From contig JAVYTR010000010.1 in the NCBI GenBank assembly GCA_038728585.1, forward strand, positions 1 to 63,406: a DNA stretch of 63,406 nt. The letters run 5' to 3'. The stretch's first letter is position 1. Every line of letters begins with the position of its first letter. Origin of the DNA: Conexivisphaerales archaeon. Its GTDB lineage: Archaea > Thermoproteota > Nitrososphaeria > Conexivisphaerales > DTJL01. Shown piece by piece: positions 5,076 to 44,308 of this stretch. The position numbers and the translations under genes were made by a program. The notes under the pieces are model-generated. The model was not told the DNA's origin and did no database searches. It saw only the letters and a list, made by a program, of their open reading frames with translations.

Positions 5076-6383
5076 ATGGGCCCCAGAGCAAGAGCTAGGG
5101 CTGAATGGGAAAGGCTGAGGACAGTCATGGTGCATACACCAGGGATAGAAATGAGGCTGGGTCTGCTGGCACCATATGCATCACTTTACGAGAGAGCATT
5201 CAGCGGAAGTGATGCTGTGCTTGAACACGAAAGGTTGAAGTATATTTTGGAGAGAGAATTCGGTGTCGAAGTTCTTACCTTCAGGGACTCTCTGCTGAAG
5301 GCAACAAAATCTGACGATAAAAAGAGAAAAGAGCTGATAAACCTTGCAATGAACTACATATCGTTCAGGGGAAGCAGAGAGGAGGCTGTTCATGCAAAGG
5401 AACAGCTGATTAACAATTCTGACTCCTATGACGATGAACATTACTTCGCCATACTTCTCCTAAACCCTCTTATCGACCTCTCGAAGGGCAAAGGGGCGAG
5501 GGCTGTATACGTCGATATAACTGCCAGGCAGCCTCTTTCAAACCTCTACTTCATGAGGGACCAGCAGGCCATAACGGATAAAGGTATATTTGTGGGAAGA
5601 ATGTCAAAGCCGCAAAGAAGAAGGGAATGTACGGTCACATCGTTTGCCTGGAAAGCGATCGGTCTTAACCTTCTGCATGAAACAGCTGAACCTGGCAGGT
5701 TCGAAGGAGGGGACTTCATGCCGATGAAGGATTTTGCCCTTGTGGGGGTTGGCGACAGAACAAACGAGGAAGGTGTAAAGCAGCTTCTGAAGTACGGAGT
5801 GGAGTTTGAAGAAGTGGCAGTTGTGCACCAGCCAAGGCATCCTCTTATGGGTCAGCAGGACAAGATGGTGAGTATGCACCTTGATACTTATTTCAACTGC
5901 ATATCTTCAGGCCTCGTGGTTGGGAATGAGCTTTTGCTGAGAAACGCGCAGGTTGAGGTGTATGAAAGGACAGAGAAGGGAAACTACAAAAGGAAAAAGG
6001 AGCCGAGCATCAGGAACCTCTTTGATTACATAAAATCCAAGAAATTCGATATAATAAGGATAAACACACTTGAGCAGATGTGCTATGCATCTAACTTTCT
6101 TTGCATAAGGGAGAACGTCATTCTGGCTGTGGAGACTGACAGGATAGTCAAGAAGGTGCTGGCCAACCTGAAGGCCATAGCCCAGAGGAACCCTGCAAAG
6201 TATGGAAGGCTGCTGAGTCAGGCAGAAAAGGACTATTCGGACCTGAAGAGTTCGGGAGGATTCTTTCCTCACAAGAAGGAGATCTACGAATATGGTGTCG
6301 ACGCTTACCCCATTACACTGACAAACCTGACCGGAGGATATGGAGGAGCTCACTGCATGACTTGCAATCTGGTCAGGGGGTGA
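5076..6383 (+). CDS. arcA: Arginine deiminase
   Basis: The enzyme hydrolyses L-arginine to citrulline and ammonia. Diagnostic motifs are all present: LYFMRDQ, FEGGDFMP, MHLDTYF (catalytic His and Asp) and the C-terminal nucleophile Cys in GGAHCMTC. The length of 435 residues is normal for ArcA. The frame is open from TTG 5046, but ATG 5076 is preferred because an AT-rich box (ATATTGAAAT, 5044-5053) lies about 27 bases upstream and family members align from about here. No ornithine carbamoyltransferase or carbamate kinase is nearby, so the ATP-yielding deiminase pathway is not shown; it may feed nitrogen recycling. The stop is 1-7 bases before the next start, suggesting co-transcription with the aldo/keto reductase. 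Confidence 0.88.
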   Translation: MGPRARARAEWERLRTVMVHTPGIEMRLGLLAPYASLYERAFSGSDAVLEHERLKYILEREFGVEVLTFRDSLLKATKSDDKKRKELINLAMNYISFRGSREEAVHAKEQLINNSDSYDDEHYFAILLLNPLIDLSKGKGARAVYVDITARQPLSNLYFMRDQQAITDKGIFVGRMSKPQRRRECTVTSFAWKAIGLNLLHETAEPGRFEGGDFMPMKDFALVGVGDRTNEEGVKQLLKYGVEFEEVAVVHQPRHPLMGQQDKMVSMHLDTYFNCISSGLVVGNELLLRNAQVEVYERTEKGNYKRKKEPSIRNLFDYIKSKKFDIIRINTLEQMCYASNFLCIRENVILAVETDRIVKKVLANLKAIAQRNPAKYGRLLSQAEKDYSDLKSSGGFFPHKKEIYEYGVDAYPITLTNLTGGYGGAHCMTCNLVRG

Positions 6384-39998: not shown

Positions 39999-40025
39999 GG
40001 TTGGCAGGCAGAGCTAATTAGCTGC

Positions 40026-40697
40026 TCACCTTTCAAGCAGCGCTATAGCCCTTGCTGGTGCTCCATCCGTTCCCTGAAGGAAGAGAGGCATGCAGATCAG
40101 CAGAGCATTCTTTCCTACAAGTTTGGAAAGGTTTGAGTTGAGTGATTCTATTATCGGAATGTTATTGCCGAGCAGTGTCTTGTGTGTTTCGCCAGTTTTT
40201 GAACCAAACCTTTCTATACTGAGACAGTCAATACCTACCGCCTTTATGCCTTTGGACACCAGCATCTCTGCTCCATCCGTTGAAAGATAGGTGAACCTCG
40301 ACCTAGACCAATCTTCGTCCCAAAATTTACTTACTCCTGTATAAAGAAGAATTATAGCATCTTTTCTTATCTTCTCTTGATATCTTTCTAGGTCAGTCGA
40401 GTCTATAGCTGAGCCGTGTTCCTTGTTGGAGAAGTCAAGTGTCACTGCTTTGCCACACAATCTCTCTACCGGTATCTGGTCGGCTGTTGCAGAATTATCG
40501 ATGAAGTGGTAAGGAGCATCAATATGCGTGCCATTATGCACGCCCATCTCAACCTTGCTCAGGTTCACCTTGTCTACCTGTATAGTCTTTACCCTGGTTA
40601 TCCTCGGGACTGGGTCTCCTATGTATACAGTCATCCCTTCATGGATACGATGCGATAACTCAACAACATTTGCGTTTTCGAAAAGATCAGTAAACAT
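40026..40697 (-). CDS. Cyclase family hydrolase (kynurenine formamidase-like)
   Basis: This is a metal-dependent hydrolase of the cyclase/KynB family. The metal motif HxGTHxDxPxHF is present as HNGTHIDAPYHF, and the later segment GIKAVGIDCLSIERFGS with HKTLLGNNIPIIESL matches the family. The frame is open from 40730, but that would place the start inside the TATA box. ATG 40697 lies 27 bases after TATATA and is the likely leaderless start, giving 223 residues. The substrate is unknown; the family includes formamidases and isatin and polyketide-type hydrolases. Confidence 0.83.
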   Translation of the reverse strand: MFTDLFENANVVELSHRIHEGMTVYIGDPVPRITRVKTIQVDKVNLSKVEMGVHNGTHIDAPYHFIDNSATADQIPVERLCGKAVTLDFSNKEHGSAIDSTDLERYQEKIRKDAIILLYTGVSKFWDEDWSRSRFTYLSTDGAEMLVSKGIKAVGIDCLSIERFGSKTGETHKTLLGNNIPIIESLNSNLSKLVGKNALLICMPLFLQGTDGAPARAIALLER

Positions 40698-40720
40698 ATT
40701 GTCTGCCCCTGATACCTTGT

Positions 40721-40729
40721 TTATATACA
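40721..40729 (-). promoter_or_regulatory. TATA box of cyclase gene
   Basis: TATATAAA-type box (TGTATATAA on the minus strand) centred 27 bases before ATG 40697; it decides the start of that gene. Confidence 0.6.
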
Positions 40730-40764
40730 TTGCAAACCCTTTTGAGCTGCATGTCGCGAAAACG

Positions 40765-40772
40765 ATTTATAC
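40765..40772 (+). promoter_or_regulatory. TATA box of tRNA-Glu gene
   Basis: TTTATACG, preceded by purine-rich CGAAAACG, is centred about 28 bases before the first base of the tRNA at 40797. Confidence 0.55.
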
Positions 40773-40811
40773 GCTAAAGAAAGGGCTCAGCTCTGTGCTC
40801 CGGTAGTATAG

Positions 40812-40834
40812 AGAGGAGTTAATCCTTCGTACAG
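40812..40834 (+). other. tRNA intron 1, 23 bases, in the D-loop
   Basis: Removing these 23 bases restores the D-loop AGCCCGGTCAA. A bulge-helix-bulge forms: GTAT (40806-40809) pairs with GTAC (40829-40832), with three-base bulges AG^A and AG^C at the splice sites. CCGG (40800-40803) also pairs with CCGG (40836-40839). Confidence 0.85.
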
Positions 40835-40859
40835 CCCGGTCAAGTATATCGGCCTTTCG

Positions 40860-40874
40860 ACCTATCTGGAAGAT
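40860..40874 (+). other. tRNA intron 2, 15 bases, at canonical 37/38 position
   Basis: The 15-base intron follows G37 and precedes A38. CTTT (40854-40857) pairs with GAAG (40869-40872), giving bulges CG^A and AT^A around a 4-pair helix stacked on the anticodon stem: a standard archaeal splicing motif. Confidence 0.85.
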
Positions 40875-40880
40875 AGTCGA

Positions 40881-40911
<31 letters not shown>

Positions 40912-41363
40912 AAATCAAGATGCTCAGTGTACAAATCGGAAGTTGTTAGCAAGAGTAATGGAACTAAAAAGAAAGAACAGCCGAGCGAGCGGGTAGCATT
41001 GTCATCCGCAATCCACAGAAAGAGGTATCAAGACCATGAATTATCATGATGAAGATCCTGACTATTTAAGCAGCGACCATTGCACAATCGCAGACCACAT
41101 AGCCAAGTAGCAGGACCCTGAACAAGAATGAGCTCAAATACGTAATTCACCGGAATGTGGGAGACAAAGCACAGGGGAGCTATGGATGGGTTATAGCAAA
41201 CGATGCGGATGAAGGTCTACAAAAGGTACGTCAAATTTTGCTGGTTAGTGAGAGGTGGAATCGAGAAAAACTTGACATCTTTGCAATGAAGAGGTTAACT
41301 CTTTTGGCTCGTCCTTCCGGTTGAAGAAATCGCGTGGGTCAGATTTGGGCTTCTCGTCGAATA

Positions 41364-41396
41364 ACATACACTTGTATGTAACATACACCTGTATGT
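41364..41396. promoter_or_regulatory. Tandem palindromic operator-like sites
   Basis: ACATACACTTGTATGT (41364-41379) and ACATACACCTGTATGT (41381-41396) are two copies of one 16-base palindrome (arms ACATAC/GTATGT), spaced 17 bases apart. An A/T-rich box (AAATTATATTA, 41397-41407) follows at once. This looks like a binding site for a dimeric repressor of TetR-like or similar type overlapping a promoter. No intact gene follows. Confidence 0.65.
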
Positions 41397-42252
41397 AAAT
41401 TATATTACGAACAAACCAAGACACTAATTAGCTGGGCAGAAGTCCTGTCAGCAAGAAGATGAATCTTAGAGCGGTTGACATGCAATGAACGCGCAAAATA
41501 AGTCGGAACTACAAGAAACAGATTTTATTTTGCAATTTAAGAGGTCGAGGCCTGATTCAAACTCAACTGATTTCCTTCTAAGAAGTAAAATGACCGAAGC
41601 CAGCAGATAAATGTTCTTTGTCTTAACGAGCTGATGGACTTCTGTCAGTGATGCCTGTCCACAAACACTGACTTTTTCACCTAAACTATTCATACCAGTA
41701 GTGCCTAGCTCGATACCTTGAAGGTCTGTAAATCTTCGCTTCAAGAGGCTCTGTCATTAAATCGCTCAACCCGAGCCAGCTGTGAATCAATGTTGTTCTC
41801 ACACCATCATCGTATCCCTTATTGGCCTATTCACACTCTGATTATCTTTCGTTTAGGGCCTTGGGATGATATATTTGTCATCAATTAAACTGTGAAGACT
41901 AAATATATGACGTTGTTTTTGTTTATAATGGAATTCAGTGCTAGCATGTAGTCTTGCAGTACTCCCTCGAAATAATTACTGATAGGTGGTACTTGGTGTG
42001 CAGATGTAACTCGTCTAATAATAAGTTCTTCTTCCCTTTCTCTGCATCCAGTTCTTTGCTTCCCGGCAGGGATGACCATTATTGAATATCTGCTCATCAT
42101 TTCTATCGTTACAAGCGGCCCAATAGTCCTTTTCTCATGCTTCACCCTTGCGAATACTTTTCTTTCCTCTCTGACCTAGCTATTTCCTCGATGTCTTGTC
42201 TAAATGAATCCAGTCGTTCATTCCCTTCATTACTTTTTGGCTGGCTAAACGC

Positions 42253-42353
42253 TCAGCTGACCAAATCATACCATAGCACAAAAGAGTGGAAGTACCAATC
42301 CGGCATCACATCCAGCGACTGAGTGCAAGTCCTGTGCATGCTTGGTCAGCTGA
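42253..42353. repeat. 12-base inverted repeat with 77-base spacer
   Basis: TCAGCTGACCAA at 42253-42264 is the exact reverse complement of TTGGTCAGCTGA at 42342-42353. Each arm also contains the palindrome TCAGCTGA. The right copy is part of a 12-base palindrome, GGTCAGCTGACC (42344-42355). Confidence 0.5.
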
Positions 42354-42469
42354 CCCCAAAAAGGAATAGCATTATACAGAGTTACGACGAACTTGCATAT
42401 GATTACATAGCATGAATGCATGGCATAGCTTATACATACAGATAAGAGATTGCTATCAGCAGGCGAATG

Positions 42470-44308
42470 CTATGTCAAGGCTTCTTTCACAACTTCAGAT
42501 ATGTCCCTAACTGCGTGCTGTTCGCCTTTTCCTAATGTGGTAACCGCGTCAAAGATCATCGCATTACAGAAGGGACACATTGTTACGATATTCTCACTCT
42601 TGGTTTCAGCAAGCTGTTCAAACCTCTCGTGGCTTATTCTCTTTCTCTCCTTGACTTCATACCAGTAATTTGACCCTCCAGCTCCACAACAAAAAGTATT
42701 CTCCCCGTGCAGCTTTGCCTCTTTTACCACTCCTACTTTATCAAGAACCTTTCTCTGTGGAGCAACGATGCCGTTGTACCTCGACAGGTAGCAGGGGTCA
42801 TGGATAACGTAACTCTCTTCTCCTTTGGATAAATTCAATCTGCCTGCTTCAACTAGCTTCTCTATCAGCTGAGCATGATGTACAACCTCTATATTTTTCA
42901 TCTCTTGGTCAAGGTTTGCATATTCATTTTTGAAAGTGTTAAGTCCATGGGGACATATCAGAAGTATCCTCTTTACGTTATATTTCTTGAACCTCTCTAT
43001 ATTCGACAAAGCCAGCTCCTGAAATTTGCTTTCTTCTCCAAGTCTTCTTGCAGGGTCACCACAGCAGGTTTCTTCATCTCCAAGGATAGCTATCCTTTCT
43101 ATCATACCTGCCTTCTTGAGGACCTCGACAAAATCTGAAATGTACTTCCTCATTCTGGCATCAAAACTGCCCATGCATCCGACCCAGAAAAGGTAATCGA
43201 ACTGCTTCCCCTCCGATGCATACTGAATCCCGAGCTGCTTCAACCATTCGTTCCTTGTTTGGTTGGGCGTGCTGAAAGTGTTTCCGTATTCTCCGAGACT
43301 GAGCAGAAGGGATGATTTCTTTCTATCAAGTTTACCCTGCTCTACCAGTTTCCTCCTCATATCGACTATGATGGGCAGGTGCTTAACGTCAACCGGGCAG
43401 CTGTAGACACAAGCAGCACAGGAGGTGCAGGACCAGAGCTCCTCTTCACCTATTATCGATTGAAGAGAGATGTTGCTTCCATTCGACTTGGCCATGGCAA
43501 GCTTTCTAACAAGTACCCTGGGTGAAAGAGGTCTTGAAACTCTTGTGGCTGGACATGCCGCCTCGCATGCACCTATCTCAACACATGCATCAAGGCTGTT
43601 CAGTTCAAAATCCTGAAAATCGCTGAAATTTTCAGCCCCAAGCCTTATGCTCGATGGGTCAACCTTCCCCTCGATGACTTCTTTCATGTTAAAAGGAGTT
43701 GTTATATCGGAAATCTTCATTCTTACGTTGTTGTAGGTGTTGATGGCAGGCTTGACGTAAAGTATTGCAACCAGCAGAGTCCGCGGGATGAAAGCTATAC
43801 TTGCATAGTAGAAGAACTGCTGACCAGGCACTGCTGAAAGGTCAAGGTCCAAAGTGGTCAGAAGTATGACTACTATAAGCAGAAACTGGAATAAGAAAGA
43901 ACTGCTCTTGAATCTATCGTCAATCCTGAGTTCTTCGCCCAGCTGCCTGTGCACTCTTCTGCTTGAAACAAGTATCTGCACTCTCCAGACTACGGCAGCA
44001 AGCAGCCCTATGCTCAGAACAATAGAAATTGCTATCACAGTATACTGAGCAATTTTGGAAAGAGAAATGAGCGGATAAAGCACTATGAACAGTATTGATA
44101 ACCCAACACCTCCGAAAATTGAAAGGTGTAGGAATGCAACTGTTCCCTTTCTTAGCCTTCTGAATTCGTCAGAGAGCAGTTCCGTGATTCTTTCCAGAGA
44201 TAGAGGGGCTTTAACTCTACGTGCCTCCCTAAACAATGCTACAAGAAAGTAGAGCACAACAACTATATCCAAAGCATAAAACGAGAGAAACAAAGCCAGG
44301 TCTGACAA
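42470..44308 (-). CDS. Membrane-bound (Fe-S) heterodisulfide-reductase-like protein (HdrD/GlpC type)
   Basis: This 612-residue protein joins a membrane domain to an electron-transfer head. About five hydrophobic helices occupy residues 5-25, 60-80, 88-110, 138-155 and 165-185. A ferredoxin-like domain follows: the first cluster motif is CVEIGACEAACP (Cys242, Cys248, Cys252; the position of the expected second cysteine is Ile245) and the second is the complete CTSCAACVYSCP (294-304). Two CCG domains follow, one with WVGCMG and TCCGDPARRLGEE (about 378-424) and one with HDPCYLSRYNG and FCCGAGGSNYW. Such proteins pass electrons between a soluble flavoprotein and membrane quinones. It is divergent from a disulfide-reductase flavoprotein. 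Confidence 0.83.
   Translation of the reverse strand: MSDLALFLSFYALDIVVVLYFLVALFREARRVKAPLSLERITELLSDEFRRLRKGTVAFLHLSIFGGVGLSILFIVLYPLISLSKIAQYTVIAISIVLSIGLLAAVVWRVQILVSSRRVHRQLGEELRIDDRFKSSSFLFQFLLIVVILLTTLDLDLSAVPGQQFFYYASIAFIPRTLLVAILYVKPAINTYNNVRMKISDITTPFNMKEVIEGKVDPSSIRLGAENFSDFQDFELNSLDACVEIGACEAACPATRVSRPLSPRVLVRKLAMAKSNGSNISLQSIIGEEELWSCTSCAACVYSCPVDVKHLPIIVDMRRKLVEQGKLDRKKSSLLLSLGEYGNTFSTPNQTRNEWLKQLGIQYASEGKQFDYLFWVGCMGSFDARMRKYISDFVEVLKKAGMIERIAILGDEETCCGDPARRLGEESKFQELALSNIERFKKYNVKRILLICPHGLNTFKNEYANLDQEMKNIEVVHHAQLIEKLVEAGRLNLSKGEESYVIHDPCYLSRYNGIVAPQRKVLDKVGVVKEAKLHGENTFCCGAGGSNYWYEVKERKRISHERFEQLAETKSENIVTMCPFCNAMIFDAVTTLGKGEQHAVRDISEVVKEALT

Follow-up and report, generated by a model that had tools for sequence, protein, structure and literature searches.

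The window, by which we mean the whole 63,406-nucleotide stretch of Conexivisphaerales DNA analysed here, includes a 1.5-kb intergenic region in which two palindromes stand in tandem. The first, ACATACACTTGTATGT, occupies positions 41364–41379, and the second, ACATACACCTGTATGT, lies 17 bases from it at 41381–41396. Both consist of 7-bp arms around a 2-bp centre, and the junction between them forms a third palindrome, TGTATGTAACATACA. A tandem-palindrome scan of the whole window gave the top score, 24 out of 24, at 41364–41396 only, and 100 first-order Markov shuffles of the window all stayed below 21. The pair is real and far above chance; the two copies of ACATAC-4-GTATGT, 17 bases apart, described in an earlier note on this DNA are both present without a mismatch. 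Read on the minus strand, the order of features is a TATA-like box, a palindrome, a second palindrome, an ATG and a protein remnant. The remnant was recognised with a profile built from alignment A1, which comprises 17 relatives and 359 model positions. The features are as follows.

41397..41407, minus strand: TATA-like box (TAATATAATTT), read from the sequence, directly abutting operator unit 1
41381..41396, no strand assigned: operator unit 1, TATA-proximal, perfect palindrome ACATACA-cc-TGTATGT, from the sequence and the tandem-palindrome scan
41364..41379, no strand assigned: operator unit 2, perfect palindrome ACATACA-ct-TGTATGT, from the sequence and the tandem-palindrome scan
41365..41367, minus strand: ATG of the decayed ATPase gene, placed by the A1 profile match, which runs from 41367 at model position 1
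41275..41367, minus strand: ATPase N-terminal remnant MLFDEKPKSDPRDFFNRKDEPKELTSSLQRC, A1 profile, model positions 1–31 of 359
41245..41274, minus strand: tail of the open frame beyond the remnant, with no recognisable ATPase sequence and a stop codon at 41245–41247

Other features were noted around the pair. A tRNA gene with intron sequence lies at 40797–40912 on the plus strand, directly downstream of the dead ATPase gene; ARAGORN, with introns allowed, calls it tRNA-Asp, and by eye it resembles a tRNA-Glu with two introns. The same intergenic region holds a perfect 12-bp inverted repeat, TCAGCTGACCAA/TTGGTCAGCTGA, at 42253–42264 and 42342–42353, its arms 77 bases apart. A transposase remnant suspected by eye in the rest of the region was dropped, Pfam giving no match.

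The ATG lies inside operator unit 2, among its last bases in the minus-strand reading, and is in frame with a 31-residue remnant starting MLFDEKPKSDPRDFFNRKDEPKEL. This remnant matched the A1 profile with an E value of 8.7e-5 in a whole-genome search, and a profile of the N-terminal part placed it above every other open frame of the window (E 3.8e-8; next frame, 0.87). It carries the N-terminal motif MLFDxxPKxxxxDLFDRExEL right at the start codon, and its sequence identifies it as the N-terminus of an archaeal subfamily of PF01637 AAA+ ATPases, the family of PDB 2fna. Beyond model position 31, no match was obtained in any frame at the locus. Every frame there lacks the P-loop or Walker A motif (GxxRxGKT/S) along with the remainder of the ATPase domain, the sensor regions and the C-terminal winged helix, a PF21100-like domain present in 17 of 17 living subfamily members. 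Walker A and the rest of the domain being missing and the gene decayed, the locus is therefore counted as a remnant and not as a member of the subfamily; that only 31 residues of the protein survive counts against the reading as a dead subfamily gene, since they reach neither its ATPase motifs nor its winged helix. No intact subfamily member was found elsewhere in the genome at E ≤ 1e-25, only partial, weak A1 matches.

These observations change the direction in which the locus is read. The A/T-rich box pointed out in the earlier note is real and lies at 41397–41407, but it is the TATA box of a minus-strand gene and does not serve a start at 41425–41435; the promoter, taken there to face the plus strand, points left, towards the ATG and the ATPase remnant. 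A TetR-like regulator had been proposed, and what we find instead is an AAA+ ATPase with a winged helix of its own. The alternative that a "regulator locus has decayed" fits, an ATPase N-terminal remnant lying behind the ATG. A cooperatively binding dimeric repressor had also been suggested: the site does have the look of an operator occupied by two dimers, with binding, repression, the number of dimers and the signal all being inferred.

A TetR-like or other trans-acting repressor, controlling a small plus-strand gene or RNA such as the 41-codon frame at 41485–41610, would nevertheless agree with the geometry of the palindromes, which is compatible with TetR-type operators. Tandem CATAC..GTATG pairs also occur in many bacteria: the pattern CATACNNNNGTATGN{1,6}CATACNNNNGTATG was found in 29 stretches among genome contigs, 28 of them bacterial, judging from titles only. 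We consider this explanation very unlikely. Pfam returned no match for ten frame fragments of the intergenic region, the 41-codon frame included, and no Rfam family reached its gathering score at 40000–43500. At the DNA level, the 1.5-kb intergenic region matched nothing in the other 40 of the 41 genomes searched. No further exact copy of the palindrome exists in the genome (1.93 Mb, 27 contigs), so the suggested second copy near a TetR-like regulator did not materialise. Moreover, the start of a minus-strand ATPase gene already accounts jointly for both palindromes, the A/T box and the reading frame.

We then asked how general this arrangement is. Of 150 genomes of the class, 30 contained PF01637 matches at E ≤ 1e-10, 48 in all, and a tandem-palindrome score of 18 was reached at 34 of 45 gene starts, 3 loci without ends having been skipped. 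In the phylum, the A1 profile detected a subfamily member at E ≤ 1e-25 in 136 out of 398 genomes. The gene set combined 30 loci, the class members and 115 further genes, which were chosen from about 160 listed, most copies that had internal stops or lay at a contig edge being left out. We required the match to begin at model position 6 or earlier and at least 100 bases to be available upstream, and 160 distinct genes passed this filter. A score of at least 18 was found at 133 of these 160 genes; among the controls, it was reached at 19 of the 286 starts of neighbouring genes and in 7 of the 800 shuffled sequences. For a score of at least 20, the corresponding figures were 106, 8 and 1. Several of the best-scoring controls among the 286 are these operators read in the opposite orientation (L144, L121) or come from further PF01637 loci, and the control count is therefore too high, if anything. 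Two imperfect units are still visible by eye in most of the 27 genes below the threshold. A sister subfamily in the same phylum (VEFxDRe type) showed tandem palindromes at none of 29 starts, one of its 30 genes lacking upstream sequence.

The anatomy of the living genes matches that of the window site, in which two palindromic units lie between the TATA box and the start codon and the second reaches the start codon. In the subfamily genes, the end of the second unit falls at most a few bases from the start codon. A/T content across the 160 living relatives is highest at positions −41 to −38 relative to the start codon, which is where the window has its TATA-like box. The period among the 133 operators was 19 in 91 cases, 18 in 21, 20 in 10 and 17 in 8; the window period of 17 is thus a minority value (8/133), the usual though not universal period being 18–19. 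The window also differs in its half-site, CATACA or ACATAC depending on the register, in which base 2 is A or C; this base is T in 67 of 75 relatives. These differences count against it, but on the evidence as a whole it is very probable that the window palindromes are the orphan promoter–operator of a dead PF01637 AAA+ ATPase gene on the minus strand.

Of 266 units, 158 have a core that reads GGG on the coding strand and 8 have CCC; the window units have no GGG core, a further point against. This G-run, seen for example at L023, L056, L126 and L132, introduces an asymmetry into an otherwise symmetric site, which a symmetric dimer does not explain. The same strand bias would suit RNA hairpins in the 5′-terminal part of the ATPase mRNA, acting on translation and not on transcription, and in many units 5–6 bp hairpins with a GGGG loop are possible. 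Several units, however, would have no loop or almost none (L024, GTTACCTAGGTAAC; L007, ACTAATCATGATTAGT). An archaeal promoter with a TATA box at about −40 is expected to start transcription at about −14, which would leave unit 1 untranscribed. We regard hairpins as quite unlikely for these reasons, and also on account of the co-variation between half-site and protein described below, which indicates DNA binding.

If the ATPases read their own operators, half-sites should change together with the residues that contact them. For 132 genes with a score of at least 18 and a period of 16–20, we asked, for every one of the 359 protein columns, how well identity there went with half-site similarity once overall identity was held fixed, using 8,617 pairs below 75% identity. 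The six columns that best tracked the half-site were 289, 322, 315, 326, 320 and 321, all in the C-terminal winged helix. Columns 320–326 correspond to residues 310–316 of the L022 model (mean pLDDT 89.4), where the third helix of the winged helix spans residues 311–323, so that these columns lie at its start. Among 75 proteins below 60% identity, column 321 was the best for half-site base 1 (z 15.2; next column, 6.2), although the proteins are related and not independent and the z-scores exaggerate certainty; the best columns for bases 3, 4 and 5 were 320, 322 and 326, respectively.

In the full set, Asp321 goes with C at 55 of 57 occurrences, whereas Asn321 and Lys321 go with G (22/25 and 16/18, together 38/43). 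Likewise, Ser322 is found with C (46/51) and Lys322 with G (15/19), Asp320 with G (13/13) and Thr320 with A (12/12), and Arg326 with C (40/45) and Asn326 with T (26/36). Under stricter cut-offs, which left 33 and 20 proteins, the link between base 1 and column 321 alone was clearly at the top, the other links being lost in the noise of so small a sample. In a leave-one-out prediction over 33 proteins, base 1 was correctly given by column 321 in a fraction of 0.76, compared with 0.42 for the nearest relative. Shared ancestry inflates scores of this kind, but it should not single out the recognition helix from among 350 other columns. Co-variation with the recognition helix of a winged helix suggests that DNA is bound.

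The operators appear to be largely specific to each gene. One of them, CTTCTRGGGGTAGAAG, was searched in 22 chosen genomes and occurred in 20 exact copies in 12 of them, all at starts of subfamily genes; one locus per genome was read, and 3 of the 12 genes were broken. With one mismatch, 13 copies were retrieved, 11 at subfamily starts and 2 elsewhere, and with two mismatches the pattern was about as frequent as the reversed control. Half-sites differed in 73 of the 76 pairs of genes from the same genome. The remaining 3 pairs have all six half-site bases in common, but their units are of unequal length (15 or 16 bp). Across the 76 within-genome pairs, there was no sign that paralogs avoid shared addresses beyond what divergence brings.

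The window palindrome itself was not found, with up to three mismatches, in the other 60 of the 61 genomes searched, and no living gene carrying it was detected in its own genome, in the 60 other genomes or in the 29 contig stretches. The earlier note had proposed the search for other copies as a test; no copy turned up elsewhere in the genome or in the 60 others, while the arrangement is conserved in the subfamily. Such a test is misleading here because the palindrome sequence is largely gene-specific and it is the arrangement that is conserved. A profile scan of all 29 stretches gave a weak AAA similarity at L082 (Methanocella) only. This locus was tried as an archaeal owner of the window palindrome and rejected, the frame downstream resembling by eye a VCP-type ATPase and not PF01637. 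Its array of CATAC-type palindromes (5579–5612) lies between that frame and one resembling an ArsR-type regulator, and it has no relation to the PF01637 subfamily.

The sole strong PF01637 gene of the genome is on contig C6 and belongs to a different subfamily from the remnant. This gene (L007, from 42368) encodes an intact ATPase of 454 codons counted from the ATG, preceded by a TATA box, ACTAATCCAAATTAGT and ACTAATCATGATTAGT, with the ATG within the second unit. It thus has the same anatomy as the window site but a different palindrome. The L007 half-site was also seen on contig C2 of genome G001, where the gene has an internal stop.

Both units of the window operator are perfect and the coding part is ruined, as would be expected if another protein of the cell had taken over the operator and kept it in use after the death of the ATPase. 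We hold this to be unlikely: the genome has no other copy of the palindrome and no intact subfamily member, its sole strong PF01637 gene has a palindrome of its own, and a recent death of the gene accounts equally well for perfect units. The window operator, as the relic of a dead gene, may have no present function in its genome. The turnover of these ATPase genes seems to be fast, and operators are still recognisable at the broken or truncated ATPase genes L155, L157, L158, L161, L163, L166 and L172. Such frequent broken copies, together with the patchy distribution (136/398 genomes) and the tRNA gene adjoining the remnant, could also be seen as the mark of a mobile element, the palindromes being its end or an integration site of the ATPase gene without a regulatory role. 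This is the least probable of the explanations that we considered, given the fixed place of the units, from the TATA box to the start codon, in 160 genes, and the confinement of exact copies of the one operator tested to gene starts.

The best reading of the sequence evidence is that each ATPase would bind its own promoter through a private operator and probably repress it. The ancestral gene of the window would have belonged to the subfamily whose proteins start with MLFDxRPKxxRxDLFDREkEL and end in a winged helix, and whose living members appear to share one cassette: a TATA box, a tandem pair of palindromes spaced by about 19 bp and, directly after them, the start codon. Two ATPase dimers, if this is the number, would sit on the two palindromes by means of the third helix of their winged helices. 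Bound between the TATA box and the start codon, they would deny the transcription machinery access to their own promoter, and their release might depend on whether the AAA+ part has ATP or a ligand bound. Autorepression is likelier than activation because dimers in that position would block initiation.

We also favour, if by a narrow measure, a broader proposal in which the members of this PF01637 subfamily are self-addressed switches, each with a near-private palindrome pair at its own start codon. The recognition code, in which columns 321, 320, 322 and 326 would specify bases 1, 3, 4 and 5, would have let protein–operator pairs diversify into many different addresses throughout the phylum. 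Each ATPase could then be a sensor controlling nothing but its own amount, with a burst of release on a signal to the ATPase core, and the window would be a fossil of such a switch. The one operator that was searched genome-wide had no exact copy away from its own gene, so the ATPase might have no further specific DNA target.

Neither the ATPase family nor its fold or winged helix is new. The remnant corresponds to the N-terminus of the 2fna-type subfamily of archaeal AAA+ ATPases (PF01637, ATPase_2), which, with PDB 2qen, are the closest known proteins. We take 2fna to be SSO1545. The protein of L124, from relative G470, aligns with the 2fna chain from end to end with no difference in the alignment as printed, and the start of its gene carries CTTCTGGGGGTAGAAG twice. 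In contrast to these ATPases, the window gene is dead, and no other operator found resembles its own in sequence. Autoregulated bacterial and archaeal repressors with tandem operators are familiar from TetR and the phage repressors. The likeness lies in dimeric palindromes between promoter and start codon and in a recognition helix that matches the half-site. Here, in contrast, DNA would be read by a winged helix at the C-terminus of an AAA+ ATPase, and the site is near-private to each gene, possibly with several differing pairs per genome. An AAA+ core followed by a winged helix is also the general plan of Orc1/Cdc6 and of MalT/STAND-type ATPases. A passage of PMC4599002 places SSO1545 beside Cdc6/Orc1, and the structure paper of 2fna (Xu et al. 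2009) is cited in a portion of PMC5760070. In the literature searched, which did not include the 2fna structure paper, the Hyperthermus butylicus genome paper or most subscription journals, we found no account of this operator class or of autoregulation, and a prior mention is possible.

PF01637 ATPases form a large archaeal group, with up to nine strong matches in single genomes, to which no role is assigned and of which one has a solved structure. A gene-specific operator readable from sequence, combined with a recognition code, opens a direct test of which DNA is bound, through which residues and with what effect. Orphan palindrome pairs in archaeal intergenic DNA could likewise be used to spot dead members of the group.

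Tandem palindromes were also seen in another archaeal phylum, that of L082, where 12 of 27 PF01637 genes reached a score of 18, mostly with a period of 15. These 27 come from 30 loci, L311 (internal stop), L321 (contig edge) and L327 (N-terminus absent) having been left out; this count, which has no controls of its own, is suggestive only as to the trait outside the phylum. Examples with tandem palindromes at the start codon and a period of 15 are L315, L319, L322, L324 and L328.
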